From an uncultured Roseateles sp. (GTDB taxonomy: Bacteria > Pseudomonadota > Gammaproteobacteria > Burkholderiales > Burkholderiaceae_C): DNA of 64,000 bases. Below, in pieces: positions 36,393 to 63,415 of the stretch (positions are counted from its first letter, which is position 1; each line of letters begins with the position of its first letter). The stretch spans positions 124,001 to 188,000 of the forward strand of contig NZ_CAMFJS010000006.1 of assembly GCF_945956965.1 (NCBI RefSeq), given 5' to 3'. The notes beneath the pieces were generated by a model. That model made no database searches and was not told the DNA's origin. It worked only from the letters and a program-made list of their open reading frames with translations. The position numbers were made by a program, and so were the translations under genes.

Positions 36393-36426
36393 GTGCGTGT
36401 GATGTCCATGGGCGATTGGTCGGCGC

Positions 36427-36786: not shown

Positions 36787-37018
36787 TCCAGTTGGTGTCC
36801 TGCATCACCGCGCGTGCTCGCCCCGGGGCTCTGCACAGTGGGTGGGTCAGTATCGAATCCATACAGGCGAAATACGTTAAGTTGTTGATTTCATTGATGT
36901 TTATGATGCATCTTGCCGCAGAAAGTGGCGCCCGTCGAGTGTGTGCGGGCCTCACGTGCCTGCGGAGGAGTCGCCTCCGCGCAGCCGTGCCACCAGACAT
37001 CAAGTCCTCGGAGTCCCC

Positions 37019-38421: not shown

Positions 38422-38430
38422 CGCGCCAGC

Positions 38431-39471
38431 CTACTGCCCTTGTTCGGTCGCTGCAGCCAGGCTCTCACCGACCCGAGGCCACGCCCTGTTGAGGGCATCC
38501 AAGCCAACGTCCAAGGCCTTGCGCCAAGCTGGGCCGCGTGCACGTGTCGAGGCGACCATCTCGACGATGCCGTCGGGATCGCGCTGCACGAAGTAGTCAA
38601 TCAGCGCCGCGGCCTGAGCGATGTCCTTTTTCGTCTTTGATCGGCTGTCCCCGGTCCGTTCGGCGGCCACGAGCAGTTTGCCCACGGCGTAGGTGGCCGG
38701 GGCTGGTAGGTTGACGACGATGGCCGAGGTACTGCCCAGCAGGGCCGCCGGGATGGGCGCTTCAAGCGCCAGCTCCATGAAGCGTAGCGGCTGCAGGGTC
38801 ACGTTCAGCGCACGGCATTCGACCGGTGCGTCACCGGTGCGCGTCCGAGAGGTCAGCCAGTCCAGATCGAAGTCTGGTTCGTCCGGCTTCACGTAGCGTG
38901 TTCCAGAGTTCACCGGCACAAAGCCCATCTGCAGGGACTCGATCGCCGAGTGGGCATCGACGCGGGCGTTCGGCGCCACAGCCAATGAGAGGTTTCTGCC
39001 TGCGTGGGCGAAGTCCAGGTCAACCGTCTGGCCAGGATCACCCCAGAGCACGCCCAGCACGTTCTGGTAGGCCAGGAAGGCATGGGTGCCGACCACGAGG
39101 GCGCCGGCCGAGAACACGCCGTGATCAGCGAGGCGCTTCAGCACGCGGAAATGCTTCGGTGCGACCGTGTAGCAGCCCAAGGCTGCAGCTGCGTTGGACA
39201 GCTTGCGCAAGTGCGCCTGGTTCGCAACCGCCGTCTCGTCGTGAGCGGCTTCGATGAGCGCGCGGGTTGCCTCGTCATCCGGACCGACATAGATCTGCTC
39301 GAGGCCGGCCGGGCCCTTGCGCTGGTAGTAGTGGTACCGCTTGCCGTGAATCAGCTTCGACGCGAAGCCACCTGGAAGGTCGGCGGGTGATCGATTGAGC
39401 TGCGCCATCCGGGCTGCGGAAAGCACGGAGGAGTAGGCGGCCTGAGCTGCCAGGCTGTTGTCGACAAACAT
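38431..39471 (-). CDS. GSU2403-family nucleotidyltransferase-fold protein
   Basis: This 346-residue protein has a nucleotidyltransferase-type active site: VVGTHAFLAYQNVLG (Gly-Thr motif near 128) and TVDLDFAH with Asp151 and Asp153. A helical C-terminal half follows, including YFVQRDPDGIVEMV. It fits the GSU2403 nucleotidyltransferase-fold family, related to AbiEii/MenA-type NTases of toxin-antitoxin and abortive infection systems. No antitoxin is beside it. It is the last gene of the leftward cluster, 34 bases after the DUF2357-like gene, but an inverted repeat in that gap may give it its own control. Confidence 0.82.
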   Translation of the reverse strand: MFVDNSLAAQAAYSSVLSAARMAQLNRSPADLPGGFASKLIHGKRYHYYQRKGPAGLEQIYVGPDDEATRALIEAAHDETAVANQAHLRKLSNAAAALGCYTVAPKHFRVLKRLADHGVFSAGALVVGTHAFLAYQNVLGVLWGDPGQTVDLDFAHAGRNLSLAVAPNARVDAHSAIESLQMGFVPVNSGTRYVKPDEPDFDLDWLTSRTRTGDAPVECRALNVTLQPLRFMELALEAPIPAALLGSTSAIVVNLPAPATYAVGKLLVAAERTGDSRSKTKKDIAQAAALIDYFVQRDPDGIVEMVASTRARGPAWRKALDVGLDALNRAWPRVGESLAAATEQGQ

Positions 39472-39478
39472 GTTTCTA

Positions 39479-39503
39479 TACTACCTTCTATGGAAAAGTA
39501 GTA
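39479..39503. promoter_or_regulatory. Inverted repeat TACTAC...GTAGTA upstream of the nucleotidyltransferase gene
   Basis: Perfect 6-base arms (39479-39484 and 39498-39503) flank a 13-base AT-rich centre, seven bases before the leftward ATG at 39471. It could be an operator; no -10/-35 pair is certain. Confidence 0.4.
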
Positions 39504-39505
39504 CA

Positions 39506-41416
39506 TCAATTTCTGACCAGAGTGTTAGGGCTAGTCGCATGGCCAGTCCAAATTCTGTCCGCATCCTCGGGCGATTCAATCTGGATCTCATCAGCCCCAA
39601 CGACCTCGAATGGGCGAGGTGCGTCTCCGTATGCATAGCTTCCCTGACGCTCACTGGCCTCGGCGCCGAACCGCCATTTCCAATTGAAGCCACACCCACA
39701 CACGGCTTTAAAACCCTTGCGGTCAGCCTGAACTCCTCGGGCGGGCACAACGTCACCACACACCTTGCACGTAGCCATCAACTCAGCGGTCTGGAGTGCC
39801 GACCACATGTTCGAGATGACACCCTCGCTGGCCCCGGCTGCTTGAATCATCGAGCGCAGTCGCGCCTGATCTTGATCTTCGACAGGCCTGAGTACACGAA
39901 GCCCACGCCCCTCCGCCGAAAACGTGCCTGGAAACGCTGCACACAAATCCTGTGCGGATGCTTGAGGCCACGGAGACACGAGCATCGGATACGCGGATGC
40001 GAGCCGCGAAATCAGCCAGGCTTCGATCCGAGCTTTCACTCGCTCCACAGAATAGAACTGCAACGGGTTGAGGACTGCATCCCCACCCGTCCCCCACTGA
40101 AACGCTTCTTCGGTGGCCGATGGCGGTGCGTGGCAGAAAACGACTTGTCGTTCACTACCATCCATGGACCACTGACCATTGCCTCGCCATACCGGCGCAA
40201 AAATCAGCGGACGCTCTACCCCGAAGGCGCCGGACTTCAAGTGGAGTAGAAACTCACCTCTCGTCGCTTCAGAGACGATGAGCGACCAAGGCCCCAATCT
40301 GTACTCAGCGGGCTCTTTGCTGGCCTTCAGCAGCTTTGATGAAGACAGCGCGTGCTGGATTAGCAAACCTACATAGCCTCTGAACTGCTGATATTGCCCT
40401 TCAGCGGCTTCAACTTTCAGCTTTCCAGTTTGAGCTTGACCACTGCCCACGGCATGAGCCATGGACCACAGCGGCCGCAGTCGCTTGTAATTCTGGTCAT
40501 GCAGCAGCACATTGGTTGTGCGAAGAGCCTGCGGCACATGCACGCCGTTGGGAATAGCTTGATACAAACGACCGAGTTGAAGCCGCTTGATCTTCTTCAA
40601 GAGAACAGTCAACTCCGCAAGGACAGCCGATCCGGCTTTGTTGGATTCCGCATCAGTCGAATAGGCTTTACCCCAAAGCCCGCACAAACGGTACCGAAGA
40701 CGGTGATCAAGTTCCTCAGCATTGGCGATCGCAGCTGCGTCTGTCCGCCTAGCTTCCAAGGTACGAAGGCTGCGTACCCTTTGATTCAGGTGGATGTACA
40801 GCCTGTCCAAGAGACGTGCGTAGACAACGTTCTCATAGATATGAAGCTCGTCCTCACTCACCTCCGCCAGAAGGCGTTTGGGGCTTACGCCCCTAAAGTC
40901 TCGTCTGTTCCAATCATCAGAGTGGGATGTCAGCCTCACGAGCGCGCCACTTGCGAGCCTCCTGACTCGTGATGTCGGAGTGAGTTCCGTGTCGTAGCGC
41001 ATGCTCATGCGAGGCGACCGCTCAATGCTAAAGAGATGCGGCATGTCCTTGGTCAGCCTCTTCTCAAGCTCGGTCAGTTCAGCTTGCTCTTTGAGCTTTC
41101 CAGGCATCACCGGAGACAGATTCTCAGTCAGGCCACTTTCATCAAGCTCGTCAACAACGGCTTGCACCGCTCTGACAACGAGATCCTCATCAGCATCTTG
41201 CTCAGACGAAAAACCTGAGAAAACATGGCTTTCGGCGACGTCGCCCTTGCGAACCTGCAGATCGCAGCGGCCAGTGCCAGGGGCCCAGAGGATTGCACCA
41301 GCCTTGAGTTCGATGCTGTCGTTGAGTTTGGCATCGACCAGAATTCGATAGCGCCCCGACTCCACCACATGTGGAAGATCCGTCTCGCAACCTGTCACGA
41401 GATCGAAAGCCCTCAT
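39506..41416 (-). CDS. DUF2357-like partner of the McrB-like ATPase
   Basis: This 636-residue protein starts with an ATGA overlap with the McrB-like gene, a pairing typical of McrB ATPase and its DUF2357/McrC-like partner. N-terminal residues 1-100 are beta-rich. Residues 194-206 read YENVVYARLLDRL, a phrase like the YEN(R/x)hhh...LL helix in DUF2357 proteins. Later come a long helical and beta domain and a C-terminal zinc ribbon (ATCKVCGDVV and VCGCGFNW). No certain PD-(D/E)xK nuclease triad was identified, so cleavage activity is not claimed. It would act as regulator or effector of the ATPase. Confidence 0.7.
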   Translation of the reverse strand: MRAFDLVTGCETDLPHVVESGRYRILVDAKLNDSIELKAGAILWAPGTGRCDLQVRKGDVAESHVFSGFSSEQDADEDLVVRAVQAVVDELDESGLTENLSPVMPGKLKEQAELTELEKRLTKDMPHLFSIERSPRMSMRYDTELTPTSRVRRLASGALVRLTSHSDDWNRRDFRGVSPKRLLAEVSEDELHIYENVVYARLLDRLYIHLNQRVRSLRTLEARRTDAAAIANAEELDHRLRYRLCGLWGKAYSTDAESNKAGSAVLAELTVLLKKIKRLQLGRLYQAIPNGVHVPQALRTTNVLLHDQNYKRLRPLWSMAHAVGSGQAQTGKLKVEAAEGQYQQFRGYVGLLIQHALSSSKLLKASKEPAEYRLGPWSLIVSEATRGEFLLHLKSGAFGVERPLIFAPVWRGNGQWSMDGSERQVVFCHAPPSATEEAFQWGTGGDAVLNPLQFYSVERVKARIEAWLISRLASAYPMLVSPWPQASAQDLCAAFPGTFSAEGRGLRVLRPVEDQDQARLRSMIQAAGASEGVISNMWSALQTAELMATCKVCGDVVPARGVQADRKGFKAVCGCGFNWKWRFGAEASERQGSYAYGDAPRPFEVVGADEIQIESPEDADRIWTGHATSPNTLVRN

Positions 41417-43794
41417 CCACCACGCTCCATGCGCTTGCGGTCACGGTCTAGTGCGGCCACACACCTTACAGGCTCGCCTTCCAGTTCGCAATCTTTCCAA
41501 AGCCGATGCAGCGCATCTTCGATTGTGCGGAGATCGTCGAGACCCATGTCATGACGCCCGACAACTTTGCCATCGCGGAACATTCGGCTGTGCAGCATGT
41601 GGTCGACCGCCACAGACTCGCTGCCACCCGATTCAAGAACAACCGGAACAAAACGCTTAAATTGAGCTTCGAAGCGATTGCCCCATCCAAGGTGCCATTG
41701 GCTTGACAACAAGCGAGTCAGTTCACTGGCGTTGATGAACTGCAGCAGGTCCTCTACCTGTGGCTTCCTACCCTCGAACGCTTTGCTGAAACTCTTCTTG
41801 AGGCTGGACACACTCCATTGAGCAGGGGATTCAGGCCTCTTCAGAGCTGCATCCTCACCATCGATCTTGTGCAACTCCATGACAAAGGCACGGTCGTGCG
41901 TCTTGTCCGCGAAGCTGTTCGTGGTCTCATCCTGGTTGGCTGTGCCAATGAACCACACGTTTGGCGGAACGAGGATGTCTCGTCCGCCTCGCAGCAGCGC
42001 GGGTGCCATGCCTCCAGCAGGAGAGTCCATCAAGTTGATCCATCGATCGGGCTCGTTCATCTCCAAAGCGGACAGGAAGTCGGCAAAGTACTGCTCTGGT
42101 CGAGACAAGTTCATCTCATCAAGAAGAACGATGTTGAAGCGATCCTTCCATTGGGGCATCTGTGCTCGGTACAAGGCCTGGAGCGTGTTCTTCTCGTAGT
42201 ACTTCTTCTCGAACGCGTTGTAGTACCCAAGCAAGTCGTTTCGATCACGCCAACCAGCCTGTACGGCAACGGTGGTGCAGTGGCCCCCAACGGCCTTGGC
42301 AAATGCCATCGCCAGACTCGTCTTGCCTGTGCCACTGATGCCCTGCAGGATGTGCAAATGGCTCATCGCCAGGCCACCCAAGAAGATTTGGATGTCTTCG
42401 GTGCTGTACTGGAGCACCTTGCCCTCGCCGCCGCTATACGCAATCCGTGAACGCAGCTCCGCCACAAGTTGCGGCAACTTGGGCACAGGATCCGTGTGCG
42501 CATCGACGGCCATTTCACGATCCATGAGCATTAGGGCGGGGAAGGCACTCTCGCCCTCACGCTTGTCGAGCAGGCTCTCGACGTCACGACGAAGCCGATC
42601 GTTTTGCTCGTGCAGAACTGCACGACTGCGCTCCATGGCGGCCTTGGCGCGCTCCCAGTCTTCTCTCTCCGTCACGCTTCTGCGCCAATTGCCTTCTTGT
42701 GACCTCAAGGCCACCAGCTCAGCATCTAGCTCGCGAATCTTGTCGAGATACAAGTCCCTCTGAGCTTTCAGCTCGGCGGGATCATCACTGGCCAAGCGCA
42801 TATGAGCGTCTTGCAGTTCACGATCCTTCTCTCTGCATTCAAGGCGCAGTTTCTCCAACTCGTCGAGGAGCGCGCGGGGATCGCCGCCAGCGCTGGAGCG
42901 CAGGTCTTCCAGCTCGTCGAGTTCCGCCTGCAATCGATCAAATTCGTCAGACTTCTTGTCCAGCCTTTGCTGAAGGCGAGCTTCGCGTTCCTTCGCTGTG
43001 CGTTGAACTTGCTCGAGTTCCTCCTGCACGGACTCCACTGCCACGGAGCGCCCCACCTTGAGCAATTCCTCATTCATCTTGAGGCGCTCCTCCCGCTTAT
43101 CCAGCTCAGCGGACCGCTTGGCTTGCTCAAGCTCTTCAGCCTGAAGCGTCAAAGTACGAGCACGAGCCACGTCAACCAATGCAGCAGCATCCGCTCGCGC
43201 CTGGTCCAAGATCTGTTCACGTTGGGCCTGCATCTCGACAGCCAAACGATCACGCTTTCCTTCGAGGAGATCAATCTGCTCTCGAAGCAACTTGAGTGCT
43301 TCCTCTCGCTCTGAGACGAGTCCCCCGCGCAGAGCTGCTTCCTGCACTAGCAGTGCCTGCTCCTTGCGCAGCAACTCCGACTGCTTGGCCTCGAGCTGCG
43401 CCTGTTGATCTTGAAATGCCGATCTCAATTCCCCCTGCATCTGTTGTTCTTCTGAGAGGGTGCTTCTCTGCGCGCGCAGGTCTTCACGCTCCTGCGCCAA
43501 AGACTGTCGCGCTGCTTCGATCGCCGTTTTCTGCTCGTCTAAAGCTTGCAGCCCATTCTTCAGTTGAGTTCCAAAGCTTGCGAACTGCTCGATGAAGGTG
43601 CCAAGGCGCTGCTGAACTTCTTGAGGTGCACCGGCCCACAGCTCTCTGACTTCCTGCTCATTCCAGTCAGGAGGAGGGATGTTCAGCAAGGGAGCGGCCT
43701 GCAGTGTTGTTGCAAACAGCTTGTTGAGGACTGGCGGAGGTGCTGCTTGCCCCGTTGACCTGCTTTGGGCAGGGATCCGATTCTTCTTTCCCAT
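41413..43794 (-). CDS. McrB-like AAA+ ATPase with long coiled-coil N-terminus
   Basis: This 793-residue protein has a coiled coil over residues about 85-410, rich in Glu, Lys, Gln and Leu heptads, then an AAA+ domain of the McrB clade. Walker A is ILQGISGTGKTSL (485-492), Walker B is IVLLDEMNLSRPEQYF (about 555-570), and the sensor region is VWFIGTANQDETT. In McrBC systems the ATPase (GTPase) translocates DNA and drives McrC cleavage; here a DUF2357-like gene overlaps its stop as ATGA. The coiled coil in place of a DNA-binding domain is the odd part and suggests protein-filament or oligomer scaffolding. It follows the HEPN-motif gene by 11 bases. Confidence 0.88.
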   Translation of the reverse strand: MGKKNRIPAQSRSTGQAAPPPVLNKLFATTLQAAPLLNIPPPDWNEQEVRELWAGAPQEVQQRLGTFIEQFASFGTQLKNGLQALDEQKTAIEAARQSLAQEREDLRAQRSTLSEEQQMQGELRSAFQDQQAQLEAKQSELLRKEQALLVQEAALRGGLVSEREEALKLLREQIDLLEGKRDRLAVEMQAQREQILDQARADAAALVDVARARTLTLQAEELEQAKRSAELDKREERLKMNEELLKVGRSVAVESVQEELEQVQRTAKEREARLQQRLDKKSDEFDRLQAELDELEDLRSSAGGDPRALLDELEKLRLECREKDRELQDAHMRLASDDPAELKAQRDLYLDKIRELDAELVALRSQEGNWRRSVTEREDWERAKAAMERSRAVLHEQNDRLRRDVESLLDKREGESAFPALMLMDREMAVDAHTDPVPKLPQLVAELRSRIAYSGGEGKVLQYSTEDIQIFLGGLAMSHLHILQGISGTGKTSLAMAFAKAVGGHCTTVAVQAGWRDRNDLLGYYNAFEKKYYEKNTLQALYRAQMPQWKDRFNIVLLDEMNLSRPEQYFADFLSALEMNEPDRWINLMDSPAGGMAPALLRGGRDILVPPNVWFIGTANQDETTNSFADKTHDRAFVMELHKIDGEDAALKRPESPAQWSVSSLKKSFSKAFEGRKPQVEDLLQFINASELTRLLSSQWHLGWGNRFEAQFKRFVPVVLESGGSESVAVDHMLHSRMFRDGKVVGRHDMGLDDLRTIEDALHRLWKDCELEGEPVRCVAALDRDRKRMERGG

Positions 43795-43805
43795 GTCTGT
43801 ACTTC

Positions 43806-45248
43806 TTAAAGATAGCGTTCAAATTGACGGAACCAGTTCAGGGCTGACTGCGTCAGTCGCAGTACCTCGTCCTTCTGGAGGCGATGACTCGTTGCGTGGC
43901 TGCTGTCGTTTCGCAGGTCCATCAGCGCCCAATCCAAGCCGTCGTCTGATACCGTTCGAAACGGATGATCCATGTGCACATGTGTGGACAAGAGCGCTGC
44001 CACCATCAACGCTTTAAATGGGCGATCTCTGTCCTTTCCGGCAAGCCTGACCTGCTTCGCCACTTGCCCGCTGAGTGCCTCAATGGACGGTTGCGTGAGT
44101 GGCTTTGCCAGGGGCAACGATTGAAGCAAATGCTGGAGTTCTCTTCTATGCCAGTTCTGCGGCCAGTCCTGTGTCTCTACGCGCCAGCGACCCAGCATCC
44201 ACTTCAGCGTGGCCTCCAAAAGTGAACCGCACTGGTTGGCCAGGTTGGTCAGCTCCTCTTGGTACGGACTGGATGCTGCAGTGATGCTTTCCTGCAGCCG
44301 AATCACTCGAAGCAAGTACTCTTGCATCATCTCGTGCTCCGGCTTGGTCAAATTGGGCGCCTCTTGCAGTGCCCGAGCTTTTGCCAGCAAATCCAACTGG
44401 GCCAACCTGTCCGCTGGTGTCGCACCAGCCAGGTCGGCGTCATCCTGGCGAAGCAGGTCAATGACCTTCGTTGCCAGATAGGGCTCTCTGCTCATGGCGG
44501 GGGTCAATGCTTCACGAAGGGGACGCAAGGCGGGCGTCAATCGCCAAGGATCCGACACCAGCCACGGGTACAGGTCTCTTTCCGGCGCGTAGATTTCACA
44601 GATGGCCCAAGCCCTCTGGGGCGGCGCGTCGATCAGTTCCAGTGACTGATCGGCGTACGTCACCCAGTCCACTTCCTCAACAGCGGCTGCACGAACATCT
44701 CGGCGAAAGTCTCTCCACGCCGTTTGCAAAGACTGCAGGTCGGGCACCAGATCATGTGCACGAAACGGCAAACGATATGGCCTTCTCACACGCCCGGTAC
44801 CCCGATCATCGACGAACTCGGGACGGTCCCTCGAGCTGCTTTGCGTGGGTCTTACCTCTTCCAAGCTTCGCGCGAACCTGGGGAGCAAGCGGCCTGAAAT
44901 AGCATCTCTGAACGCATACATGACAGTCAAGGAAGCTTCGGCCTCCTCGCCAGTCAATGCATCGAGCCCTCGTTCCGTGATTCGCTGCCCAGCATCGACC
45001 CAGCCCCTGGGCTGCAGTTCCTGCGAGATGATGAACGCGATCAAATCTCGATCCAACTCGAGGTTTGAAGCCAGCTCACTCAAATCGCGCACGCCCGTCG
45101 CCAGTAGACCGAGGACAGCCTCTTGAAATACATTGATGTGGTGGCTTGTCTGGGGAGCCAACACCGTAAATACATCCATGGGCCAAAGGATTGGCGTTGC
45201 GTTCTTTCGGACCGGACGTCCCCACTGCAGATAGATCTCAGCTGACAC
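43806..45248 (-). CDS. Winged-helix-like protein with C-terminal HEPN-type Rx4H motif
   Basis: The GTG at 45248 is preferred because GGAG sits 7 bases upstream and it overlaps the helicase stop. The product has 480 residues. Residues about 30-90 look like a winged helix (LGLLATGVRDLSELASNLELD). A long helical middle follows. Near the C-terminus, DWALMDLRNDSSHATSH contains Arg446-Asn-Asp-Ser-Ser-His451, the Rx4H motif of HEPN ribonucleases, inside a helical region. HEPN proteins often act as RNase toxins in defence. The whole does not match a named family I recognise. It lies between the helicase and McrB-like genes in the same operon. Confidence 0.7.
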   Translation of the reverse strand: MSAEIYLQWGRPVRKNATPILWPMDVFTVLAPQTSHHINVFQEAVLGLLATGVRDLSELASNLELDRDLIAFIISQELQPRGWVDAGQRITERGLDALTGEEAEASLTVMYAFRDAISGRLLPRFARSLEEVRPTQSSSRDRPEFVDDRGTGRVRRPYRLPFRAHDLVPDLQSLQTAWRDFRRDVRAAAVEEVDWVTYADQSLELIDAPPQRAWAICEIYAPERDLYPWLVSDPWRLTPALRPLREALTPAMSREPYLATKVIDLLRQDDADLAGATPADRLAQLDLLAKARALQEAPNLTKPEHEMMQEYLLRVIRLQESITAASSPYQEELTNLANQCGSLLEATLKWMLGRWRVETQDWPQNWHRRELQHLLQSLPLAKPLTQPSIEALSGQVAKQVRLAGKDRDRPFKALMVAALLSTHVHMDHPFRTVSDDGLDWALMDLRNDSSHATSHRLQKDEVLRLTQSALNWFRQFERYL

Positions 45249-48200
45249 GTTTGGACTCCGCTTCACACAGTTCAAGGAAATCGCACATCTCTGGCACGGC
45301 CTTCATCGCCGCATCGCCTCGATACATGTCAGCGTCACCCACCACAAGCAAGTACCGCCGTTGACGACTCATGGCCACGTTCAAACGATTGGACGAACGA
45401 AGGTGGCCAAACTTGGCGCTGGCTTGCTTTTCAGAGGCCTCAAGCTGTGATTCGTCACCGCCGTCAACGGGGGCAGCCAACTTCATGGTGTTGCTTCGCA
45501 CCGTTGACAGCAGCACCACATCGAATTCCTTCCCTTGGAACGCATCGACTGTGCCAATTCGTAGCCGCTCGGTGCACACCGCATTCGCGGCCATTGAGGG
45601 CTTGATGACCCAACCTGTCTCAGTCTTTTCGGTGATGCCATGCTTGGGTGCAGACAAGGCCTCATTGATGGCATCTCGTTGTGCCGCATAGAACGTGATC
45701 ACGCCGACGCTCATTTCTGAGGGCAATGTCTCCATCAGCCGCGAGACCTCCTCGGCAACTCTGACGGCCTCAACTTCCCTTAGACGACTTGACCCCTTGC
45801 GTTCTTCAGGCCCCCTTGAATGGGGCACATGAATCCAAGAGCAAACTGCTCGGCCCAGACCAGGGACCTCATCCATGAAGTCAGACTCCAACAGCCCCGA
45901 CTTCACCCGGCCAAGTCCAGGTCTCTCATAGAACTGCTTGCTGATGAAGTCGCCCAACCGTGGGTGCATACGGAACTGGGTGTCCAACATGACGACGCGT
46001 GAGAAGCCATCCGAAGCCTCCCGCTTCTGAAACTGGCGCCAGAGTCGTTCGAAAAGGCTTTTCTTGTAGACGTCGCTGCTGATCTGCTTGCCTCTTTCGG
46101 CTGTGATCTCGTCCTCAATATCTGCATCCAACAAGTGAGGTAACTGCCGTGGGTCGCCCACCAACACCACTCGACGCTTGGCGAGTGCCATTGGCACAAA
46201 CAGATCCATGGGGTTGGCTCTCGCAGCCTCGTCAATGATGACGCTGGAGAATCGCAAGGAATCCAGGCTGTCTTCACGCCCATCTTTCAGCAAAGCCATC
46301 TGGCGGCTGGCAGACTGCTGGCAAGTTGCGCCCACGATGCTGCTGTATTGCGCCACGGCGCTGCGCACCCTGTTAGGGCTGCTGACCAAGGCATCGACAT
46401 ACTTCTCTAAGACCGCAGCACGGCCATGGGAAGTGGAGATCACCTTCTCTTCGATGAAGTCCTGCAACTCCTTGAGCAGTGTTTTCAAGTTCTCCGATAA
46501 CTGAAGGCGCTCTTCGTGCGTTCTGACGTCGCTGGCCAAACGATCAAGCAGTCGAGACTTCATCTCCACTAGTGCGGGGAGCATTTCGGCGGGCAACACC
46601 TCTGTCGCGCAAGCGCTGTCCAGCGCTTGCAGGTCTTGATCGTCGAGCATTCCATTGATGGCGCTGAGCCTGACTCGCACGTTCATCAATCGAGCCCGTC
46701 CGTCATCAGCAGCACCTTCTGGGGTCACCCGGATGGCTCGCACCGCCCTCCGCAGGCCTCTCCGCCGTTCGGCATCCACGCCATTTGAGATCGAAATCAC
46801 GCGCAGGTTGCCCGTGGAGTCCGTTGCCTCCTCCCAGCGGTCCATCCATGCAGAGGGAACTCGGATGCGTGCCATGACGCCCAAGTCCTCAACCATCGAG
46901 GTGAGACGAGCGAACGACTCTGCTCGCTGCTCAGGGGGGCAACCCAGCATCAAAAGGTCATTGATCGACTTGCCGAGGTCGCGCAACAGACCCAACGCAG
47001 GGTTGGAAGCAAGAAGTGCATCAAGGTACTGCTGGACTTGCTCCGCCTTGGCCTTGCGCCACCCATCAACTGAATCTGATCGACTGGAGTCTCGTCCCTT
47101 TCCCACCTTGATGGCGGGCAGGCCATACACGTCGGTTCGCTCGAGCGCGTTCTCTACGGCATCGTGCTGAAAGCTTGAGATGAGAACGTCTTGTGCAATC
47201 GACTGTTTTTCGTTCAGCTCCGATAAGCGTCGCTCAAGGGCTGCAATCACCTGGGTCTTACCTGTTCCCGGTGGGCCGATGATCAATGCGACATCCGGCG
47301 TGTTCAGAGCTACGCGGATGGCCTCTTCCTGCTTGTCGGTTGGGCGGCCAGACCGGAAGCTGGCGCGCGCATAGGCTGTCAGGGCGGGCAGCCTGGATGG
47401 CCGGACCATCGGTATGGGTTGATCCTGAAGCAATGCCCTCAGACCTCGCACACCACGTCCAGATTCGATGAACTGCCGAGCCTTGATTCTGCGTGACTGC
47501 TGTGTTCGGTCCCCTGTCACTGACAAGTAAACGTACCCCCGGGAGGGCGGAGCGTCAGCACTCTGCAGTTCCAGCAAAAGTTCGCCGTCTCGCCACTTTG
47601 GTTTAGCCCTCATGGGGCTTCGCCGAGACTGGGCACTACCAGCCAGGTCGTTGTATTGCTCTGAGTTCCAGTCAGGCGCTTCGTCCGCGATCTCAATCTG
47701 GTCGTCGTCTTCAGAGAGCTCCCGCCATCGGCGAGCCATGGCCCGCATGGCATCGGGGTCCCCCAATAGGCGCCATCCACCCCCTTCATCGCTGAGCGGC
47801 TCACAGCGGGTGTAGGCCAAGGCCTGAATGCTTGCAGCTCGTTTGACAGTACGTTGCCACTCGCGCTCGCCATACGTTTTCCAGAGGTCCAGGTAGGTGC
47901 CAAAGGTGCTCGTGACGGTCTCAAGCCTGCCTGTGCTGTTTTCGTTGATGCACTCGCCCTGCTGGGCCTGGTCGATGAATCGGATCTCACCCTCGGCAAG
48001 AACCCAGGCAATGTCTGCGCTGATCTTTCTCGTCGAAACCTTCTCGACCCACAAGACTCCCTGCGCATCTTTGCTCAGGTCAAGGACGTGTTTGCGGCCC
48101 AACAACTGAAAGCGTCGCTCGTCTGGGCGATCACGCATCGGCATGAATGCACGCACGCTTGAACTACCAGGCACCTCACACAAGAACTCCTCCTGCAGCC

Positions 48201-48585
48201 AGTCGATCGAATCCTTCACATCTGTGGTGTCGACAACCCGCAGCATCTTCAAGCTTTCGGCGGTTCGCACATCGACGACAAATGCCATGCTGCATTCATC
48301 CAAGATGTACTGAACCGGAACAACGCGGAGATACACAAACCCAGATTTCAGGGTGCCTAGATGCCACAAAGCGGTGTTGCTCAAGGCGTACTGAAACATC
48401 GCCCCAGACTCAGGAACCAGCTCCAACTCGACGATCCGATCATCTTGTCGGAGGAACACCTGATCGCCTTGCGCCCTGACAGTCACCTCTTCGTGGCGTC
48501 GCCAGTCCTTTGCCCTGAAGTCGCGCTGTTTGACACGCGCCATCAAGAGATCAGAAGTGAGGAATGGTGTTTCGTGGAGTCTCAT
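45238..48585 (-). CDS. Superfamily 1 (Upf1-like) helicase/ATPase
   Basis: This 1115-residue protein has a ~400-residue N-terminal region without clear homology, then an SF1 helicase core: Walker A LIIGPPGTGKTQVI (437-444), a long insertion of about 250 residues, Walker B SSVIIDEAARANP (about 780), motif III VLVGDPRQLPHLL, motif IV LDTQFRMHPRLGDFI, motif V GTVDAFQGKEFDVVLLS and motif VI RLNVAMSRQRRYL. The set is that of Upf1/AAA_11-AAA_12 helicases acting on RNA or DNA. No fused nuclease was seen. The start follows the kinase stop by 7 bases; its end overlaps the next start by 11 bases. Confidence 0.9.
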   Translation of the reverse strand: MRLHETPFLTSDLLMARVKQRDFRAKDWRRHEEVTVRAQGDQVFLRQDDRIVELELVPESGAMFQYALSNTALWHLGTLKSGFVYLRVVPVQYILDECSMAFVVDVRTAESLKMLRVVDTTDVKDSIDWLQEEFLCEVPGSSSVRAFMPMRDRPDERRFQLLGRKHVLDLSKDAQGVLWVEKVSTRKISADIAWVLAEGEIRFIDQAQQGECINENSTGRLETVTSTFGTYLDLWKTYGEREWQRTVKRAASIQALAYTRCEPLSDEGGGWRLLGDPDAMRAMARRWRELSEDDDQIEIADEAPDWNSEQYNDLAGSAQSRRSPMRAKPKWRDGELLLELQSADAPPSRGYVYLSVTGDRTQQSRRIKARQFIESGRGVRGLRALLQDQPIPMVRPSRLPALTAYARASFRSGRPTDKQEEAIRVALNTPDVALIIGPPGTGKTQVIAALERRLSELNEKQSIAQDVLISSFQHDAVENALERTDVYGLPAIKVGKGRDSSRSDSVDGWRKAKAEQVQQYLDALLASNPALGLLRDLGKSINDLLMLGCPPEQRAESFARLTSMVEDLGVMARIRVPSAWMDRWEEATDSTGNLRVISISNGVDAERRRGLRRAVRAIRVTPEGAADDGRARLMNVRVRLSAINGMLDDQDLQALDSACATEVLPAEMLPALVEMKSRLLDRLASDVRTHEERLQLSENLKTLLKELQDFIEEKVISTSHGRAAVLEKYVDALVSSPNRVRSAVAQYSSIVGATCQQSASRQMALLKDGREDSLDSLRFSSVIIDEAARANPMDLFVPMALAKRRVVLVGDPRQLPHLLDADIEDEITAERGKQISSDVYKKSLFERLWRQFQKREASDGFSRVVMLDTQFRMHPRLGDFISKQFYERPGLGRVKSGLLESDFMDEVPGLGRAVCSWIHVPHSRGPEERKGSSRLREVEAVRVAEEVSRLMETLPSEMSVGVITFYAAQRDAINEALSAPKHGITEKTETGWVIKPSMAANAVCTERLRIGTVDAFQGKEFDVVLLSTVRSNTMKLAAPVDGGDESQLEASEKQASAKFGHLRSSNRLNVAMSRQRRYLLVVGDADMYRGDAAMKAVPEMCDFLELCEAESKRVS

Positions 48586-48592
48586 CTCACGC

Positions 48593-50023
48593 TCACCACT
48601 TGAAGTTCCATGCGTCGTGCATGTTTCTCAACTCGCCGACATGCAACGCATGAGCGAGTTCACGACGAGGCAAGTTAACCCGCCCTTTGATCGGTGTCGG
48701 CGACTTGTGACCCGCCATTTGCAGATAGAGCGGCTTCTCACCAGAGGGCGTGATGCAAAGCTCTTGGCCTTTGATCACCAATTCCGCAATGACCTCGCTG
48801 TCCGCATAGCTGGCAGCGCCTGGTGGGGCGTTGCGCAGCTGAACCGGTTGCTGCCCTACCACCTGGTGTCGTTCTGATTTGATCCAACGATCCTTGTTCA
48901 CACTGCCATCAGGCAGTTGATCCAAAGGGCAGAACACGAAGTGATGCAGGCGAATCGCCTGCTGTGATGAAGCAGTGCTTTCACAGAACGGGCACTCACC
49001 TGTGTCTGACCAGAGGATTGAACTCCCGCAACCGCCGGCGCTTGGCTCACAAACAGTCTGCAGGGCAAGAGCTGACTCAAAGGCTTCAGCCCACTCTGTC
49101 ATCAAAGGCCGCGCCTCAGGTGTCTGCGCGCCGCCTCGGAAGCAGCGGTCAAAAAGCTGGCTCAGCTCTGGTGTGCAGACCGTGGGCCGGCTGATTCCCA
49201 ACGCGGTGCTGTTGCGATCATCTCGCGGGTGATCTATCCAAGGCAGTTCTCCACGCAGAGCGGCTGACTCCAGCTCAGGATCTGCGTCTACCATGTCTCC
49301 ACTCTTGAACGGGTGGAGCAATGACAGCAACTGGAACGCCATCACGGCAAAGCTCCAGATGTCGGTGTAGGTGCTGATGCCAGCATCTTCACGAACCAAC
49401 TCCGGCGCGCCGTAGTCAGGCGTGTAGAGCTGCAGGGTGCTGTTGCGAACCGCGTAGGTCAGGTTGTCACAGTCGATCAACCAGACCTGGGCGTGCTCCA
49501 CCGACTCGGATACGAACACGTTCTTCGGTGATAGATCACCATGTGCCAGGCCCAGCCCATGGAGCTTGGCCAGCACGCGCGCCAGCCGTGCCAGCAAAGC
49601 CAACCGTCGCTTCAAGCCGCCGGACGATAAGTACCCCTCCAGCCTACGACCTTCAAGACCGGCCCTTTGAGCCTCAATCAGCAAGTCTTCCAGGGGCACC
49701 AAGCCGTCCATCAACTCCATCAAGTAGCCCACTCTGGGCTTCAAGATCAAGGCCTTGGGCATCGCAAAAGGCAGGTCAAAGTCTTCGATCGGCAGCCTTT
49801 TCACAGCAGCGATTTGTTCCGCCCAGACTTTGGCGCGCGGGTCTGCGCTCGGCCACTTGCACAGCTTGACGAGCCATCTCGGTTGACCCTTTATGGTGAC
49901 GACAGCCCCTTGACCGCCTTCGGCAATCTTCTTCTCAAGCACATGGATGCGCCCGAGTTCGTCCTGCACAGACTGCGCTTTCTGCCCAGCCCTGGTGCCC
50001 ACCAATTTCTCCGTGTCCGCCAT
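48593..50023 (-). CDS. Serine/threonine-type protein kinase of a TerY-P-like triad
   Basis: The ATG at 50023 gives 476 residues. The kinase domain covers about 28-290: glycine-rich IAEGGQGAVV (33-42), VAIK-equivalent Lys53 (WLVKLCK), catalytic loop HGDLSPKNVF (Asp163, Asn168), metal motif LIDCDN in place of DFG (Asp184/186), and APE-like GAPELV. The C-terminal part has a zinc-ribbon-like GCGSSILWSDTGECPFC and a final domain with no match. With the adjacent PP2C and vWA genes it forms the triad seen in tellurite-resistance-type (Ter) clusters. It likely phosphorylates neighbouring operon proteins. Gap to the phosphatase gene is 5 bases. Confidence 0.9.
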   Translation of the reverse strand: MADTEKLVGTRAGQKAQSVQDELGRIHVLEKKIAEGGQGAVVTIKGQPRWLVKLCKWPSADPRAKVWAEQIAAVKRLPIEDFDLPFAMPKALILKPRVGYLMELMDGLVPLEDLLIEAQRAGLEGRRLEGYLSSGGLKRRLALLARLARVLAKLHGLGLAHGDLSPKNVFVSESVEHAQVWLIDCDNLTYAVRNSTLQLYTPDYGAPELVREDAGISTYTDIWSFAVMAFQLLSLLHPFKSGDMVDADPELESAALRGELPWIDHPRDDRNSTALGISRPTVCTPELSQLFDRCFRGGAQTPEARPLMTEWAEAFESALALQTVCEPSAGGCGSSILWSDTGECPFCESTASSQQAIRLHHFVFCPLDQLPDGSVNKDRWIKSERHQVVGQQPVQLRNAPPGAASYADSEVIAELVIKGQELCITPSGEKPLYLQMAGHKSPTPIKGRVNLPRRELAHALHVGELRNMHDAWNFKW

Positions 50024-50028
50024 GACCG

Positions 50029-50727
50029 TTAACCTCTGAAAATCATTGACATCGTCTTGTCGTCTGTGTGACCCGGTGTTGCCCAATGGGTCATCTCATG
50101 CTTCAACCACGCGCGAGCGCCTCTGCGGTTGCGTGCAGCCACTTCCCGATTAACCGCTGTGGCAAACCCGCCGATCCGAGGGGCGTCAATGTCATCGGAC
50201 ACGCCATCGGTCATCAACAGCACAAAGTCTCCCGGGTGGAGTATTTGCACCGAGCCTGTCGTCCAAGCCGACCACGATCGATCCACGCCAAGCGCCCGTG
50301 TCTGGTTGCCAAACCCAGTGCGTTCTGGCGTGATGACCTGGACGACGCCCTGGCTCTTGCTCACGATCAGCCCGTCACCCATCTGCAGGTAGCGAACCTC
50401 TCCATGTGCATTGCAGGCGGCCACGAGCAGCGTGGTGGCGTAGGCCGCAGGCTCAGGTGAACCCACGCGCGACAACCAGCGTTGATAGATGGCGGTCACC
50501 ACGGCCCGGTCCGGCAACCCCCAAGCATTGGTTTCACGAAACACCGCTTGCGCGCTCTGCACAGCCAACCGTGAGCCGACTCCGCTGAGGGGTTTGCTGC
50601 CCAGGCCGTCAGCAATTGCGGCGATCCATCCACCCCGCCACCCCCGCACACTCAGTGCGTCTTGACTGGGCTGGCATGCCTGCAAGTGCCATGGGCCTGT
50701 GACCGATGCCCCAACTGCCCGCAGCAC
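50029..50727 (-). CDS. PP2C-family protein phosphatase
   Basis: This 232-residue phosphatase starts with GTG immediately after the vWA stop (TAAGTG). Metal ligands fit PP2C: Asp23 (SQDALSV), Asp40-Gly41 (AIADGLGSKP), Asp118 (LQMGDGLI), Asp174 (LMTDGVSDD) and Asp223 (TDDKTMSMI). It would reverse the kinase encoded next. Compact, soluble, without a membrane segment. Gene order vWA, PP2C, kinase with almost no spacing points to coupled translation and a shared complex. Confidence 0.93.
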   Translation of the reverse strand: MLRAVGASVTGPWHLQACQPSQDALSVRGWRGGWIAAIADGLGSKPLSGVGSRLAVQSAQAVFRETNAWGLPDRAVVTAIYQRWLSRVGSPEPAAYATTLLVAACNAHGEVRYLQMGDGLIVSKSQGVVQVITPERTGFGNQTRALGVDRSWSAWTTGSVQILHPGDFVLLMTDGVSDDIDAPRIGGFATAVNREVAARNRRGARAWLKHEMTHWATPGHTDDKTMSMIFRG

Positions 50728-51513
50728 TTACAGTGCATCCAGGTCAAGGTCATCAGAAAGATCGCTGCCAAAGTCCAAAGCCAAGGCCTGGTCTGGGCTG
50801 GTGCTGGTGGATCGCGCCACCACACTCATCGTCACGGCCTTGAAGAACTTCACGATATCGCGGGCTCCATCGGCATCGAATACCGGGGTTTCGCGATCAT
50901 TGACAAACTGGCCCAGCATGGCCCGGTCGGCGTCTGCCCCGATGGCCATCGCAAAGCGGCTTGCTTTTTGCCCGCGCTCGCTGCTTTTTAGCGAGGCCAG
51001 TGGTTCTTCCCAGTCGTCTGTGGGCGCGCCATCAGAGACCAAGACCAGCACAGGCCGATAAGAGCGTGCCGGGACTTTCTCTTTGTCTTCCAGAAGCAGG
51101 CGGGCCATCTCGAACGCGCTGCCCATGGGGGTGCGCCCTTGGGCGCGGAAGGCCTCCACGCCGGCAATTCGATCTGCCGCCACCAAGGGAAGATGCTCTT
51201 TGGCTACTTCGCCGCCAAATGTGATCAATCCGACCTGAATCTCTGCCCGCAGCTTGGACTCCGCCCCGAAGCTCAAGATCATGCTCTTGAGGGCGTTGTT
51301 CAGGATGTCGATCTTGCCGTCCTCGGACATGCTGCCACTCACATCGGCCAGCACGATGACCGGCAAGGGACGTGGCTGAGGCATGGCGAAAGCCTTCAGC
51401 TTCGTGGCCGGCGCCTCCTTGGTCGGCAGCAGTGCGTCATGCTCTTTGTTGCGAATGACAGTCGCTTGATGAAAGCGACTGGCGTTGTCTTCTTCGTAGC
51501 TGGCCCAACCCAT
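50728..51513 (-). CDS. TerY-like von Willebrand factor A domain protein
   Basis: The ATG at 51513 follows CAGGAGA, six bases upstream, and is preferred over a longer non-protein-like frame. The 261-residue protein is mainly one vWA domain with a complete MIDAS: ADVSGSMSEDG (Asp57, Ser59, Ser61), QGRTPMGSA (Thr128) and LVSDGAPTDDW (Asp161). It resembles TerY of Ter stress-response clusters, thought to be a metal-dependent scaffold for kinase and phosphatase partners. An acidic tail closes it (SDLSDDLDLDAL). It is probably a phosphorylation target or platform. The DUF2130 gene ends 115 bases upstream. Confidence 0.92.
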   Translation of the reverse strand: MGWASYEEDNASRFHQATVIRNKEHDALLPTKEAPATKLKAFAMPQPRPLPVIVLADVSGSMSEDGKIDILNNALKSMILSFGAESKLRAEIQVGLITFGGEVAKEHLPLVAADRIAGVEAFRAQGRTPMGSAFEMARLLLEDKEKVPARSYRPVLVLVSDGAPTDDWEEPLASLKSSERGQKASRFAMAIGADADRAMLGQFVNDRETPVFDADGARDIVKFFKAVTMSVVARSTSTSPDQALALDFGSDLSDDLDLDAL

Positions 51514-51628
51514 GGGGAGTCTCCTGTTTACTGGTGTCGATGTTGAGGGCGGTTCACGCCGGCAGCGGAATCCATACGCTTTCGGTGTCCGCAGCCCTTG
51601 CGTTTTCAGGCAGCGAGAGGCCGCACAA

Positions 51629-53038
51629 TCAGTCAATTCGGCTGGCGTCGGAGTTCTTGAGTTCCGCAAACTTCGCCGCCATGGTTGGGTTGCCCTTGGT
51701 CAGCTTCTTGATGGTCACGTCCTGCGCTTTGTCATTCGCCAAGCGGAGATTGCGATCAGCACCCAGCAGGGCGTCCTTGGTCTTTTGCAGGTGATCGATG
51801 GACTTGTCGATCTCGTCAATCGCAGTCTGGAAGCGCCGGGAAGCCAAGTCGTAGTTCTTGGCAAACGCGTCCTTGAAGCTGTCGAGCTGATTCTCGAAGT
51901 TCGTGATGTCGATGTTCTGGGCCTTCACCAGAGCGAGCTCGGTCTTGTACTTCAGCGAGTTCATGGCCGCATTGCGCAGCAGCGTGATGATGGGGATGAA
52001 GAACTGTGGACGCACCACGTACATCTTGGGGTAGCGATGGAATACGTCCACGATGCCGGTGTTGTACAGCTCGCTCTCGGGCTCCAGCAGTGACACCAGC
52101 ACCGCGTACTCGCAGCCTTTTTCGACGCGGTCCCGGTCTAGCTCCTTCAGGAAATCCTCGTTGCGCTTCTTGGTCGCCGTGGTGTCGCTCTCGTTCTTCA
52201 TCTCGAACATGATCGAGACGATCTCGGTGCCCCCCTCGTCCGTGTCGCGGAAGATGTAGTCGCCCTTGCTGCCACTGCTGGCGTCGTTGTCTTTCTCGAA
52301 GTAAGCGCGAGGGAAGGCAGTGGCGCGGATGCGATTGAACTCGGTCTCGCAGTGCTGCTCCAGGGTTTCGCCCACCATCTTGGTGGAAAGCCGAGCCTTC
52401 ATGTCGCGCAGTCGCTCAATGGCGTCGTCGCGGTCCTTGATCTGGACCTCGTAACGGTCCCTGAGAGATTGTTCGGCAAGCTGTTTTTCCAGGCGCGCAC
52501 GCTCCAGACTACTGCGCAGTTCATCGCGCTCCTTCTCCACCGCGCTGCGTGCCTCGGTGATGGCCAGCGTCTGCGTCAACTCAGCTGCATCCAAGCGGGC
52601 TTTGAGGGACTGGATCTGGGCGTCCTTCGCGGCAGCCGCTTTCTGAAGCTCGTGATCGAGCTTGTCTTCGGCCATCTGCTTCGCCGACTGGCTTTCCTGC
52701 CGAGCGCGCTCGAGCTCACCCGCCAAAGCGTCACGCTGCTTTTCCACAGCAGTCAATGCCTGCGTCACGGCCAGTTGCCGGGCCACTTCCTCGGCTTGAA
52801 GTTTGGACTTGAGCTCTTGGATTTCGGCTTCGCGAGCGGCCGTCTGCTTCTGCAGCTCGGCAGTCATCTGGGCGCGGGCCAACTGCACGGCAGATTGCTT
52901 GTCGCGTTCAGCCAGTTCCAGGCGCTCGTGCAACTGGTGTTCGAAGTCGCTGTCGCGCACCTGCTTGAGGATGTCGGCATATCCAGCTTCGTCGATCTTG
53001 AAGGCTTTGCCGCAATGCGGGCAGATGATGTCATTCAT
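51629..53038 (-). CDS. DUF2130 domain protein
   Basis: The ATG at 53038 has GGAG eight bases upstream. The 469-residue product opens with a zinc-binding segment ([13 protein letters not shown]), then a coiled coil of about 200 residues with repeated Ala/Glu/Gln heptads, then the DUF2130 region ([23 protein letters not shown] and [18 protein letters not shown]). The IMFEMKNE strand resembles a PD-(D/E)xK-type E-x-K core, consistent with the suggestion that DUF2130 is nuclease-related. It is widespread in Proteobacteria. It is the first gene of the leftward cluster, behind an AT-rich region with an inverted repeat. Confidence 0.88.
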
Positions 53039-53168: not shown

Positions 53169-53642
53169 TTACTCGTAAGGTTGTTTGCAAACTTCATCTG
53201 CAAATGGCTGGCTAGGCCAGTGCGCGGTCAGTCGCCGCAGGTCAAGCGATGCGGATCGCTCCACGGCCAGTTGACCGTTGCCGCCCTGGAAGTTCGCTCG
53301 CAGGCTGCTGGGATGGTGAGCCCGCAACCAGGCAGTCACCTCGTCAAGGTGCTTCTGCGCAACCCCTTCGTCGAACCATACGGACCGAGGGTCGTCAGGC
53401 CGGTAGTGCATGAGGCTCTCGCCCGGAGCCGCCATCACCTTCGTTGTGGGCGAGTCCGACCACACCAGTCGCCCCAACAGCTGCAGTTGCCCCTTGCACC
53501 CGCGCGGCGTTTTTACTACCCAGATGTCATCCGGGGATCGCTGTCGCAGTTCCTCGAGCTTGTCATTGGCAGATCGGAAGTAGCCGATGCGGCCTTGGCG
53601 AATGTCGGACTCGTAGTCTTTCCAGTAGTACAGAACGTCCAT
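53169..53642 (-). CDS. Small protein of unknown function at the end of the type I RM operon
   Basis: This 157-residue protein begins MDVLYYWKDYESDIRQGRIGYF and has a mixed alpha/beta pattern (WVVKTPRGCKGQLQLLGRLVW), somewhat like PUA/EVE-type folds, though this is not certain. No catalytic motif is visible. It starts 8 bases after the DUF3644 stop, so it is the last gene of the operon beginning at hsdR or earlier. Function unknown. Confidence 0.7.
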   Translation of the reverse strand: MDVLYYWKDYESDIRQGRIGYFRSANDKLEELRQRSPDDIWVVKTPRGCKGQLQLLGRLVWSDSPTTKVMAAPGESLMHYRPDDPRSVWFDEGVAQKHLDEVTAWLRAHHPSSLRANFQGGNGQLAVERSASLDLRRLTAHWPSQPFADEVCKQPYE

Positions 53643-53650
53643 GTCAGCTT

Positions 53651-54634
53651 CTAGGAGTAGCGCGCTGCATCCGCGGCGCAGTGTGAATCGACAATCTCAA
53701 GCCAAGGCTGATACCAGTACCAAGTCTTGACTACGAGGGCGCCCAAACCTTTGGAAGGATGCTTTGCGTCCAGTTCCTTCCACAGCTGGGTATGGCTATG
53801 CATGGTGAAGCGCGGGTACCCGTTCTCCTGCATCTTCTCCACCACCTGCTTGGGCAGGTACTTGGCCTTCTCGGTTTCCTTGACCGCGGCGTAGTGCTTG
53901 TTGACGTCCTTGGCCAAGTCCGAGTCGGCCTTGATGAACTCAATCACCTTGTCCGCCTGCCCTTTGCGGTTCGCGGTCTTGGGCACGAACAGCACGCGGT
54001 ATGCGAACCGTGGGTCGTTGAACTCGGCTTCGGTCAGCTCAGAGTCGAAGGCATTGATGAACGCTCGGATGTTCGGTGGCAAGCCCTCGGCGTCATGCAG
54101 CGCTTCCCACTGATCGGTGTTGATCGCCGAGAACTGCAGGCTGAAGGACAAGTGCTTGTCGATGCCGTACTCGTCCCCGAATTGGCGCTTGATCAGGTCG
54201 TTGTAGTTCAAGCAGCAGGCCTGGAACCGAGCGCTCAGGTGCTCGTCAAGCCGACTGGTCATTTGGTGCTCAATCTCGTGGCGCAAGCCGATAAGGAAGC
54301 GCAAGTTGTTCGCTGCAGCCTTGTCGACCGGTGAGGCTTTGTCATTCAGGCAGCGCTCAAGTTCCCAGTACTTGTAGGCGCCCTTTGAGGTCTTGTCGAA
54401 ACGCTTCCGTGTACCGGCGACCTTGAAGTAGCGGTACTCGATCCCTTGCTTACGGAAATGCGCGTGGAGCAAGTAGGTCCACGAGATCACCATCATCACG
54501 ACGAAGATCTCGGACTTGAACGTAATGGCTGGATTGTTGAAGACCTGCACGGCCGCCAAGGCGGCTTCGCGGGACTTCTTCAACAACTCGTTTGAGACTG
54601 AGCCGACTGTTCTGATGCGTTGTTTTGGCTTCAT
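53651..54634 (-). CDS. DUF3644 protein with HEPN-type Rx4H motif
   Basis: The ATG at 54634 follows GGGAGAAGA. The 327-residue product fits DUF3644: an early AALAAVQVFNNPAITFKSEIF segment (split FNNPAITFKSEIF), VMMVISWTYLLHAHF, and LIGLRHEIEHQM. The last contains Arg118-His-Glu-Ile-Glu-His123, the Rx4H arrangement of HEPN proteins, and DUF3644 has been placed in the HEPN group. HEPN proteins are often RNase effectors or their regulators in defence. It follows the PLD-like gene by 20 bases. A second Rx4H-type protein lies in the next cluster at 43806-45248. Confidence 0.85.
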   Translation of the reverse strand: MKPKQRIRTVGSVSNELLKKSREAALAAVQVFNNPAITFKSEIFVVMMVISWTYLLHAHFRKQGIEYRYFKVAGTRKRFDKTSKGAYKYWELERCLNDKASPVDKAAANNLRFLIGLRHEIEHQMTSRLDEHLSARFQACCLNYNDLIKRQFGDEYGIDKHLSFSLQFSAINTDQWEALHDAEGLPPNIRAFINAFDSELTEAEFNDPRFAYRVLFVPKTANRKGQADKVIEFIKADSDLAKDVNKHYAAVKETEKAKYLPKQVVEKMQENGYPRFTMHSHTQLWKELDAKHPSKGLGALVVKTWYWYQPWLEIVDSHCAADAARYS

Positions 54635-54654
54635 TCTTCTCCCTGGTTCTTTTG

Positions 54655-63381: not shown

Positions 63382-63415
63382 GCCTCTTGTGTTGCGAAAG
63401 CCGTGCCAGTCCTCC

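Follow-up and report, generated by a model that had tools for sequence, protein, structure and literature searches.

A Type II CoCoNuT with a TerY-P triad in an uncultured Roseateles, and candidate sigma-54 elements in its superoperon

A 64,000-nucleotide stretch of an uncultured Roseateles sp. (NCBI RefSeq assembly GCF_945956965.1, contig NZ_CAMFJS010000006.1, positions 124,001 to 188,000; hereafter the window, in whose coordinates positions are given) carries a tightly packed minus-strand gene cluster. It is best explained, with a probability of about 0.7, as a Type II CoCoNuT with a TerY-P triad that forms the end part of a same-strand superoperon downstream of an RtcR-like activator. The class assignment alone, following the main-text definition in PMC11090510, is almost certain. 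The original prediction, made from the sequence alone, had described a regulated restriction or abortive-infection machine that was not a named system. The conserved, tightly spaced set of phospho-signalling triad, helicase, HEPN-motif protein, McrB and DUF2357 genes and its predicted role hold up; the unnamed status was rejected once the cluster was compared with the CoCoNuT description in that paper. As far as the searches show, what is new to Type II CoCoNuT here is the location of sigma-54 elements, the system class itself being already named.

The Type II gene set outlined in PMC11090510 consists of TerY-P (vWA, PP2C and a kinase with zinc ribbon; frequent, not obligatory), CnuH, CnuE, CnuB and CnuC. 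The window holds these seven genes in the same order: a TerY-like vWA protein (50728..51513; Pfam VWA, 9e-12), a PP2C phosphatase (50029..50727; PP2C_2, 2e-39), a Ser/Thr kinase with C-terminal zinc ribbon (48593..50023; Pkinase, 2e-12; the open reading frame, ORF, extends to 50086), the UPF1-like SF1 helicase CnuH (45238..48585; AAA_11/AAA_12, 5e-31/5e-39), CnuE (43806..45248; PF24409, 1.3e-6; a start at 45275 is also possible), CnuB (41413..43794; AAA_5, 2.6e-6) and the 636-aa CnuC (39506..41416; DUF2357, 2.3e-4, below the Pfam gathering score). The nine leftward genes originally described are all present as minus-strand ORFs, with families confirmed by Pfam, and the junctions of 0, 5, 7, -11, 11 and -4 bases from vWA to the DUF2357-like gene are reproduced with the start codons of that prediction. 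The description of a run almost without gaps fits the core; between DUF2130 and vWA, whose ORF reaches to 51669 and whose likely ATG start lies at 51513, there is a gap of 115 bp. The extent first proposed needs correction at both ends: the seven core genes stand, the nucleotidyltransferase lies outside, DUF2130 is only an accessory, and the upstream head of the unit had been missed.

The proteins carry the expected motifs (residue counts refer to aligned loci holding CnuH only). In vWA, the metal-ion-dependent adhesion site residues D109, S111 and S113 are kept in 60/60 sequences; in PP2C, D118, D174 and D222 are kept in 42/42 and D23 and D40 in 41/42; in the kinase, D184 and cysteines 346, 353, 365 and 368 are kept in 63/63. 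Type II CnuH is described as a UPF1-like helicase with a large insertion after Walker A and with SmpB-like and RNase-toxin-like domains at its N-terminus (PMC11090510); the window protein has NAM7/UPF1/SEN1 as its nearest PDB structures, and its Walker A (K443) and Walker B (D785), both conserved, are set about 340 residues apart. CnuE, described in the same paper as a winged helix-turn-helix (wHTH) protein with a single HEPN domain containing RxxxxH, shows a single RxxxxH near its C-terminus (RNDSSH, 455-460), with R455 and H460 both present in 57/66 sequences. Its sole Pfam match, PF24409, is of wHTH type. Its structural model (mean pLDDT, a per-residue confidence score, 87; pTM, a whole-fold score, 0.72) yields MarR-type winged helices by Foldseek, with probabilities up to 0.99 and E above 1.

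Type II CnuB is a coiled coil fused to an NxD McrB GTPase (PMC11090510). In the window protein the motif reads N620-Q-D622-E623, with N, D and E kept in 67/67 aligned sequences; judged by this motif, CnuB is a member of the NxD branch of McrB GTPases. A long coiled coil is indicated indirectly, by an SMC-type match over residues 76-428. For CnuC, the paper describes DUF2357, a zinc ribbon, a dead PD-(D/E)xK nuclease, a beta-sandwich domain and no Hsp70 part; here the four zinc-ribbon cysteines are kept in 62-65 of 66 sequences, no conserved acidic/Lys PD-(D/E)xK triad was found in residues 360-480 of the aligned homologues, and the Pfam scan gave no Hsp70 match. In the Foldseek ranking for the CnuC model (mean pLDDT 84), McrBC entries come second and eighth, without significance (E 0.11 and 0.30). 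Neither the CnuE nor the CnuC model had a significant whole-length Foldseek match, and solved-structure searches with CnuE, CnuB, CnuC and DUF2130 found no informative relative. All Type II features examined are present in the window, apart from the HEPN fold of CnuE, which is unproven.

Compared with the main-text account of Type II CoCoNuT in PMC11090510, the cluster thus agrees in gene set and order, NxD coiled-coil GTPase, UPF1-like helicase, wHTH protein with one RxxxxH, zinc-ribbon DUF2357 protein without nuclease motif, Ser/Thr kinase with zinc ribbon, and RtcR plus Type I restriction-modification (RM) genes upstream. It differs in the window's DUF2130 gene, which is absent from that main text, and in the gap before vWA, which fits no BrnT-like gene. 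Type III-A CoCoNuT shares TerY-P, CnuH, CnuE and CnuB, but carries a pair of HEPN domains and a CnuC that is fused to Hsp70 and lacks the zinc ribbon; it was rejected on the single RxxxxH motif, the 636-aa zinc-ribbon CnuC and the missing Hsp70 match. Canonical McrBC likewise pairs a McrB-like GTPase with a DUF2357 partner, but it has NxxD in place of NxD, a small DNA-binding domain in place of the coiled coil, and an active McrC nuclease, unlike the window's CnuC with no conserved PD-(D/E)xK motif.

Conservation was followed with a CnuB profile scan of the genome collection, which matched 596 stretches; the best 80 of 552 relatives were kept. A single-protein scan of genome contigs found no relatives, whereas the profile scan did recover them. 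The 91 sequences compared are the profile-scan loci together with plasmid, viral-contig and genome-search loci, the window and L008 included; L001, L002, L005, L006, L007 and L009, being short, partial, duplicate or flanking stretches, had been excluded at the outset. The gene-neighbourhood comparison that the original prediction had proposed bears it out on co-conservation: all seven core genes occur in 40/91 sequences, the window among them, in one order in 40/40, these fractions of 91 being no census since loci were picked by CnuB similarity. In the 39 loci besides the window, only 1/234 core junctions, measured from longest-ORF starts, exceeds 50 bp. Seven-gene loci span Pseudomonadota, cyanobacteria, Deinococcus, Geomonas, Verrucomicrobia, Bacteroidota and a Polyangiaceae. 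Three to six core genes are found in 30/91, 19 of which lack PP2C alone; the remaining 11 are mostly cut by locus or contig ends, although L068 has upstream sequence and still lacks vWA and PP2C. CnuB and CnuC only are found in 18/91, CnuB only in 2/91, and none of the seven in L008. Among 369 genomes drawn from the class, CnuB matches at 1e-20 occur in 6, the window's own included, two others extending over most of the length.

An IMG/VR "viral" contig (L094:2696-13674) has vWA, kinase, CnuH, CnuE, CnuB and CnuC aboard, so phage-like or plasmid elements may be vehicles for CoCoNuTs. The closest named relative by CnuB among the matches listed (50% identity) is on the Polaromonas plasmid pPNAP01 (L010:6057-20241), which is typed as conjugative; alongside the complete core it carries genes for RtcR and a DUF4258 protein, with a zorA-containing cluster nearby.

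Mokosh is an anti-phage system, and the PADLOC run returned its profiles for the core genes. Genes upstream of the core match the PADLOC profiles REase_I, MTase_I, Specificity_I, RtcR_PspF2 and PDC-S19. The window's CnuH matches MkoA at 4.5e-85, its kinase the kinase part of the same profile at 1.6e-11, and its CnuE matches MkoB at 1e-7. This recurs in relatives: MkoA is matched by 16/16 CnuH proteins given (best 2.7e-94) and is the closest profile within PADLOC, and MkoB by 22/30 CnuE proteins given. The main text of PMC11090510 does not use the name Mokosh; it notes helicases of the CnuH family with wHTH-effector genes beyond CoCoNuTs. These matches would suit a locus in which kinase, helicase and wHTH protein are a split MkoA-MkoB and form the working defence, the McrB/DUF2357 pair being an add-on. 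Such a reading is unlikely. The kinase-helicase fusion described by the MkoA profile is absent, kinase and helicase being separate genes, and genes for McrB and DUF2357 are present in addition. Only positions 22-287 of the 610 in the MkoB profile, its N-terminal half, are covered by the match, and the CnuH proteins that match MkoA also match, more weakly, MkoC (16/16) and PDC-S37 (15/16). Distant phyla share the order kinase-CnuH-CnuE-CnuB-CnuC and its near-zero gaps, although the constant pairing of CnuB with CnuH proves nothing, the loci having been chosen by CnuB.

The lack of a conserved acidic/Lys triad in CnuC leaves room for a Type IV restriction system that cuts DNA, with DUF2130 (51629..53038; Pfam 6e-93; longest ORF from 53086) supplying the lost nuclease. 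This protein is encoded directly before vWA, has a long charged N-terminal stretch, and by eye may contain a putative D...ExK-like motif. The idea is improbable: DUF2130 occurs in the window only among the 91 sequences, about 2 kb upstream of vWA being visible in many of them, and the RxxxxH-motif protein is what is co-conserved. For want of co-conservation DUF2130 was also rejected as a core member; no other CoCoNuT in the set has it alongside, though many show only that 2 kb.

TerY-P is known from Ter clusters, and the triad with its zinc-ribbon kinase could also point to a tellurite or metal stress locus without a role against phage. This has very little probability: the set lies amid Type I RM and further defence candidates, its conserved partners are McrB, the helicase and the RxxxxH protein, and Pfam scans of the proteins gave no Ter family match, terB/C/D not having been searched for as such.

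The preferred reading, a Type II CoCoNuT at the end of a superoperon, extends the unit upstream; Type II CoCoNuTs often stand in superoperons alongside RtcR and Type I RM (PMC11090510). Downstream of the activator, the unit is about 24 kb of 15 genes on one strand with the CoCoNuT last. The activator, a 510-aa RtcR-like CARF-AAA-HTH sigma-54 protein, has its 3' part at 63416..64000 (minus strand) and runs 948 bp past the window (L008:1416-2948); it matches PADLOC RtcR_PspF2--CARF_AAA_HTH at 6.6e-198 and Pfam Sigma54_activat and RtcR at 3.9e-66 and 6.3e-6. It is followed on the same strand by hsdR (59932..63381; REase_I, 1.7e-274; in-frame ATGs at 63357 and 63351 being possible true starts), hsdM (58358..59905; MTase_I, 1.4e-172), hsdS (57183..58361; Specificity_I, 2.2e-94), an AAA_15 ATPase, a 285-aa protein, a DUF3644 protein, a 157-aa protein, DUF2130 and the seven core genes.

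The 34 bp between rtcR and hsdR contain a candidate sigma-54 -24/-12 element, TGGCACGGCTTTCGCA (63393..63408, minus strand), which agrees with the consensus at 11/12 positions and has GG-N10-GC spacing. It is the sole match with at most one mismatch in 64 kb, where 1.44 per 64 kb are expected by chance on both strands, and 2/1000 Markov shuffles of the gap region reach its score. When rtcR and the next gene were taken from 14 loci (regions of 80-761 bp; L016 was left out because its rtcR is divergent), a score of at least 10/12 was reached in 8/14 rtcR-adjacent gaps, and in 6/11 among loci unseen before the test was set up; 1.2% of 20,000 random 280-bp segments from loci with rtcR do so. L016 has a score of 10 within its 927-bp gap.

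A second position emerged when 46 loci lacking an adjacent rtcR were scanned over the 300 bp that precede vWA. A score of 10 occurs in 5/46 (L019, L022, L023, L030, L036), always 49-75 bp before the longest-ORF vWA start, and a score of 9 in L021 and L024 (47 and 58 bp before vWA) and in L061 and L078 (232 and 5 bp). An RtcR-like activator was found in 12/17 proteobacterial-type genomes searched. Scores of at least 9 at 47-75 bp before vWA occur in 7/10 covered genomes with the activator versus 0/5 without it, the genomes having been selected after the pre-vWA matches were known; two of the 12 activator genomes fall outside this count, L025 (no vWA) and L031 (already among the 14 loci). In 8/12 the activator precedes cnuB by about 19-34 kb and shares its strand; in the others it is just downstream (G381), on the other strand (G373, G374) or on another contig (G378).

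The 11 activator genes of these genomes other than L031 were examined in turn. The next gene is HsdR in 9/11, and an element of at least 10 stands 3-9 bp past the activator stop codon in 8/11. Kinship inflates these counts, four of the eight elements sharing one 16-mer and two another. Many relatives thus have predicted sigma-54 elements where rtcR meets hsdR and a short way ahead of vWA. No consistent shared dyad that might serve as an activator site was found upstream of them, and between 37.5 and 57 kb sigma-70 promoters show no enrichment (1 found versus 4.1 expected). A sigma-54-like site before DUF2130 (53090, 8/12) was not counted, as the strand holds 41 sites of at least 8 in the 26 kb scanned, the 53090 site and the 63408 element included. 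RtcR control of CoCoNuTs was proposed in PMC11090510, whose main text has "promoter" once and "sigma54" twice, with no sites given in those passages; the RtcR-like family was linked to R-M systems in PMC4012209.

The following findings weigh against the reading as a whole. Six of the 14 rtcR-adjacent gaps score below 10 (L010 and L034, 9; L032 and L066, 8; L029 and L035, none), as do 3/11 of the later activator genes (L104, 9; L106 and L109, none). Nineteen loci, most of them from Actinobacteria, have the full set except for PP2C between vWA and kinase (L048-L054, L056, L059-L063, L065, L067, L069, L077, L086, L094), so the triad is not invariable; because a relaxed search of 20 PP2C-less loci recovered no such gene (best E 1.8), vWA and kinase persist without the phosphatase, mainly in Actinobacteria. 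In CnuE, R or H is missing in 9/66 sequences, two of these by gaps, and the HEPN fold is unconfirmed, the top Foldseek match being Csm6 (E 0.17, probability 0.10). The literature search found no experiment on any Type I, II or III CoCoNuT. In PMC11090510 as well, RNA targeting and phage defence by Type II CoCoNuT are a prediction only. On the supporting side, Druantia Types I and II, since reclassed as Type IV CoCoNuTs, protect against phages, and stand-alone defence has been shown for TerY-P-like modules (PMC12458937, PMC11090510).

The trigger raises a further point of the same kind. E. coli RtcR activity requires RtcA and RtcB (PMC9650030), yet the host genome, scored 100% complete and containing a sigma-54 gene, gave 0 matches each for rtcA and rtcB (E. 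coli control positive). In such a host the activator must therefore perceive its ligand unaided or together with some other partner. RtcB is missing in 11/17 searched genomes with RtcR and CoCoNuT and present in 6, their completeness not being on record and L039 falling outside the count. This pattern argues that the activator would sense its signal without the RNA-repair enzymes. The resemblance to the RtcR-RtcAB RNA-repair regulon accordingly lies in a CARF-AAA-HTH sigma-54 activator beside a likely target promoter; the difference lies in the absent rtcA and rtcB and in the target, here a restriction/CoCoNuT operon.

A mechanism can be proposed by assigning inferred activities to the observed gene content, motifs, gene order and element positions. 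By analogy with RtcR, infection or RNA damage would yield RNA ends or nucleotides bound by the CARF domain of the activator, which may then open a sigma-54 promoter at the element seen in the rtcR-hsdR gap. Type I restriction, judging from its family, would act first, on phage DNA. CnuB-CnuC and CnuH might recognise foreign or ribosome-associated RNA, as hypothesised in PMC11090510, and HEPN-type CnuE could cut RNA, slowing or killing the cell if Type I restriction fails. Kinase and PP2C, scaffolded by vWA, might set the on or off phosphorylation of CnuH or CnuE. The chances of this mechanism being right as a whole are about even.

On the same evidence, the superoperon may be an infection-induced sigma-54 regulon. 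An RtcAB-independent CARF activator would fire a promoter 3-9 bp past its own stop codon, with HsdR as the first product, and in many relatives a second sigma-54 promoter before vWA would switch on the triad together with the CoCoNuT that cuts RNA. The core of helicase and effector would amount to a Mokosh module that McrB controls. The case for this proposal and the case against it are evenly balanced. If true, a single sensor of RNA damage would drive both the restriction of DNA and an abortive infection based on RNA. CoCoNuTs are widespread systems of large size, and the promoter elements make the published guess of RtcR-like switching testable by reporter. The Mokosh match would tie the core to a tested anti-phage system; it also means that profile-based annotation may label CoCoNuT loci as Mokosh.

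Among the accessory genes, all on the minus strand, the AAA_15/AAA_21 ATPase (55512..57140; Pfam 2e-18; PADLOC NsnB, 3.8e-43) adjoins the 285-aa gene (54655..55512), which has a relative near the Deinococcus CoCoNuT L013. Relatives of both (window 54655-57140) are also paired at L013:19453-22325, on a Deinococcus plasmid and on the opposite strand, and the two may be a small defence unit in their own right. The DUF3644 protein (53651..54700; Pfam 3.8e-59; PADLOC PDC-S19, 1.1e-167) is an accessory defence candidate. The 157-aa protein (53169..53642) has no match in Pfam, NCBIfam or PADLOC; by eye it is EVE/PUA-like, which would suit a sensor of modified nucleic acid.

At the downstream border, the NTP_transf_8 nucleotidyltransferase (38431..39471, minus strand; Pfam 1.3e-39) is not part of the system. 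It was ruled out as a ninth member by a 98.3% identical protein on the plasmid of Shinella sp. XGS7 (NZ_CP084759), where it adjoins the same thermonuclease gene and no CoCoNuT is found within 17.8 kb around it. DNA similarity to this plasmid (90-92%) extends over window 35584-37628 and 37712-39526, where it breaks off 21 bases into the reading frame of cnuC; this puts the island boundary at 39526. The nucleotidyltransferase was therefore there before the CoCoNuT, or came apart from it.

At the other end, past rtcR, divergent tnsA, tnsB, tnsC and tniQ/tnsD of a Tn7-like element lie at L008:3227-9723 (plus strand), and the contig ends 395 bp after tniQ. The search for Tn7-type end repeats near tnsA gave one inverted pair of 14 nt and nothing convincing; the element ends were not found. 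The defence island may be cargo of this element. A neighbouring block beyond the downstream border encodes a DUF6791-ThiF protein (E1-like; 32605-33825, minus strand), an IrrE-like peptidase (34575-35375) and a ParS/Xre-type antitoxin (35661-36566).

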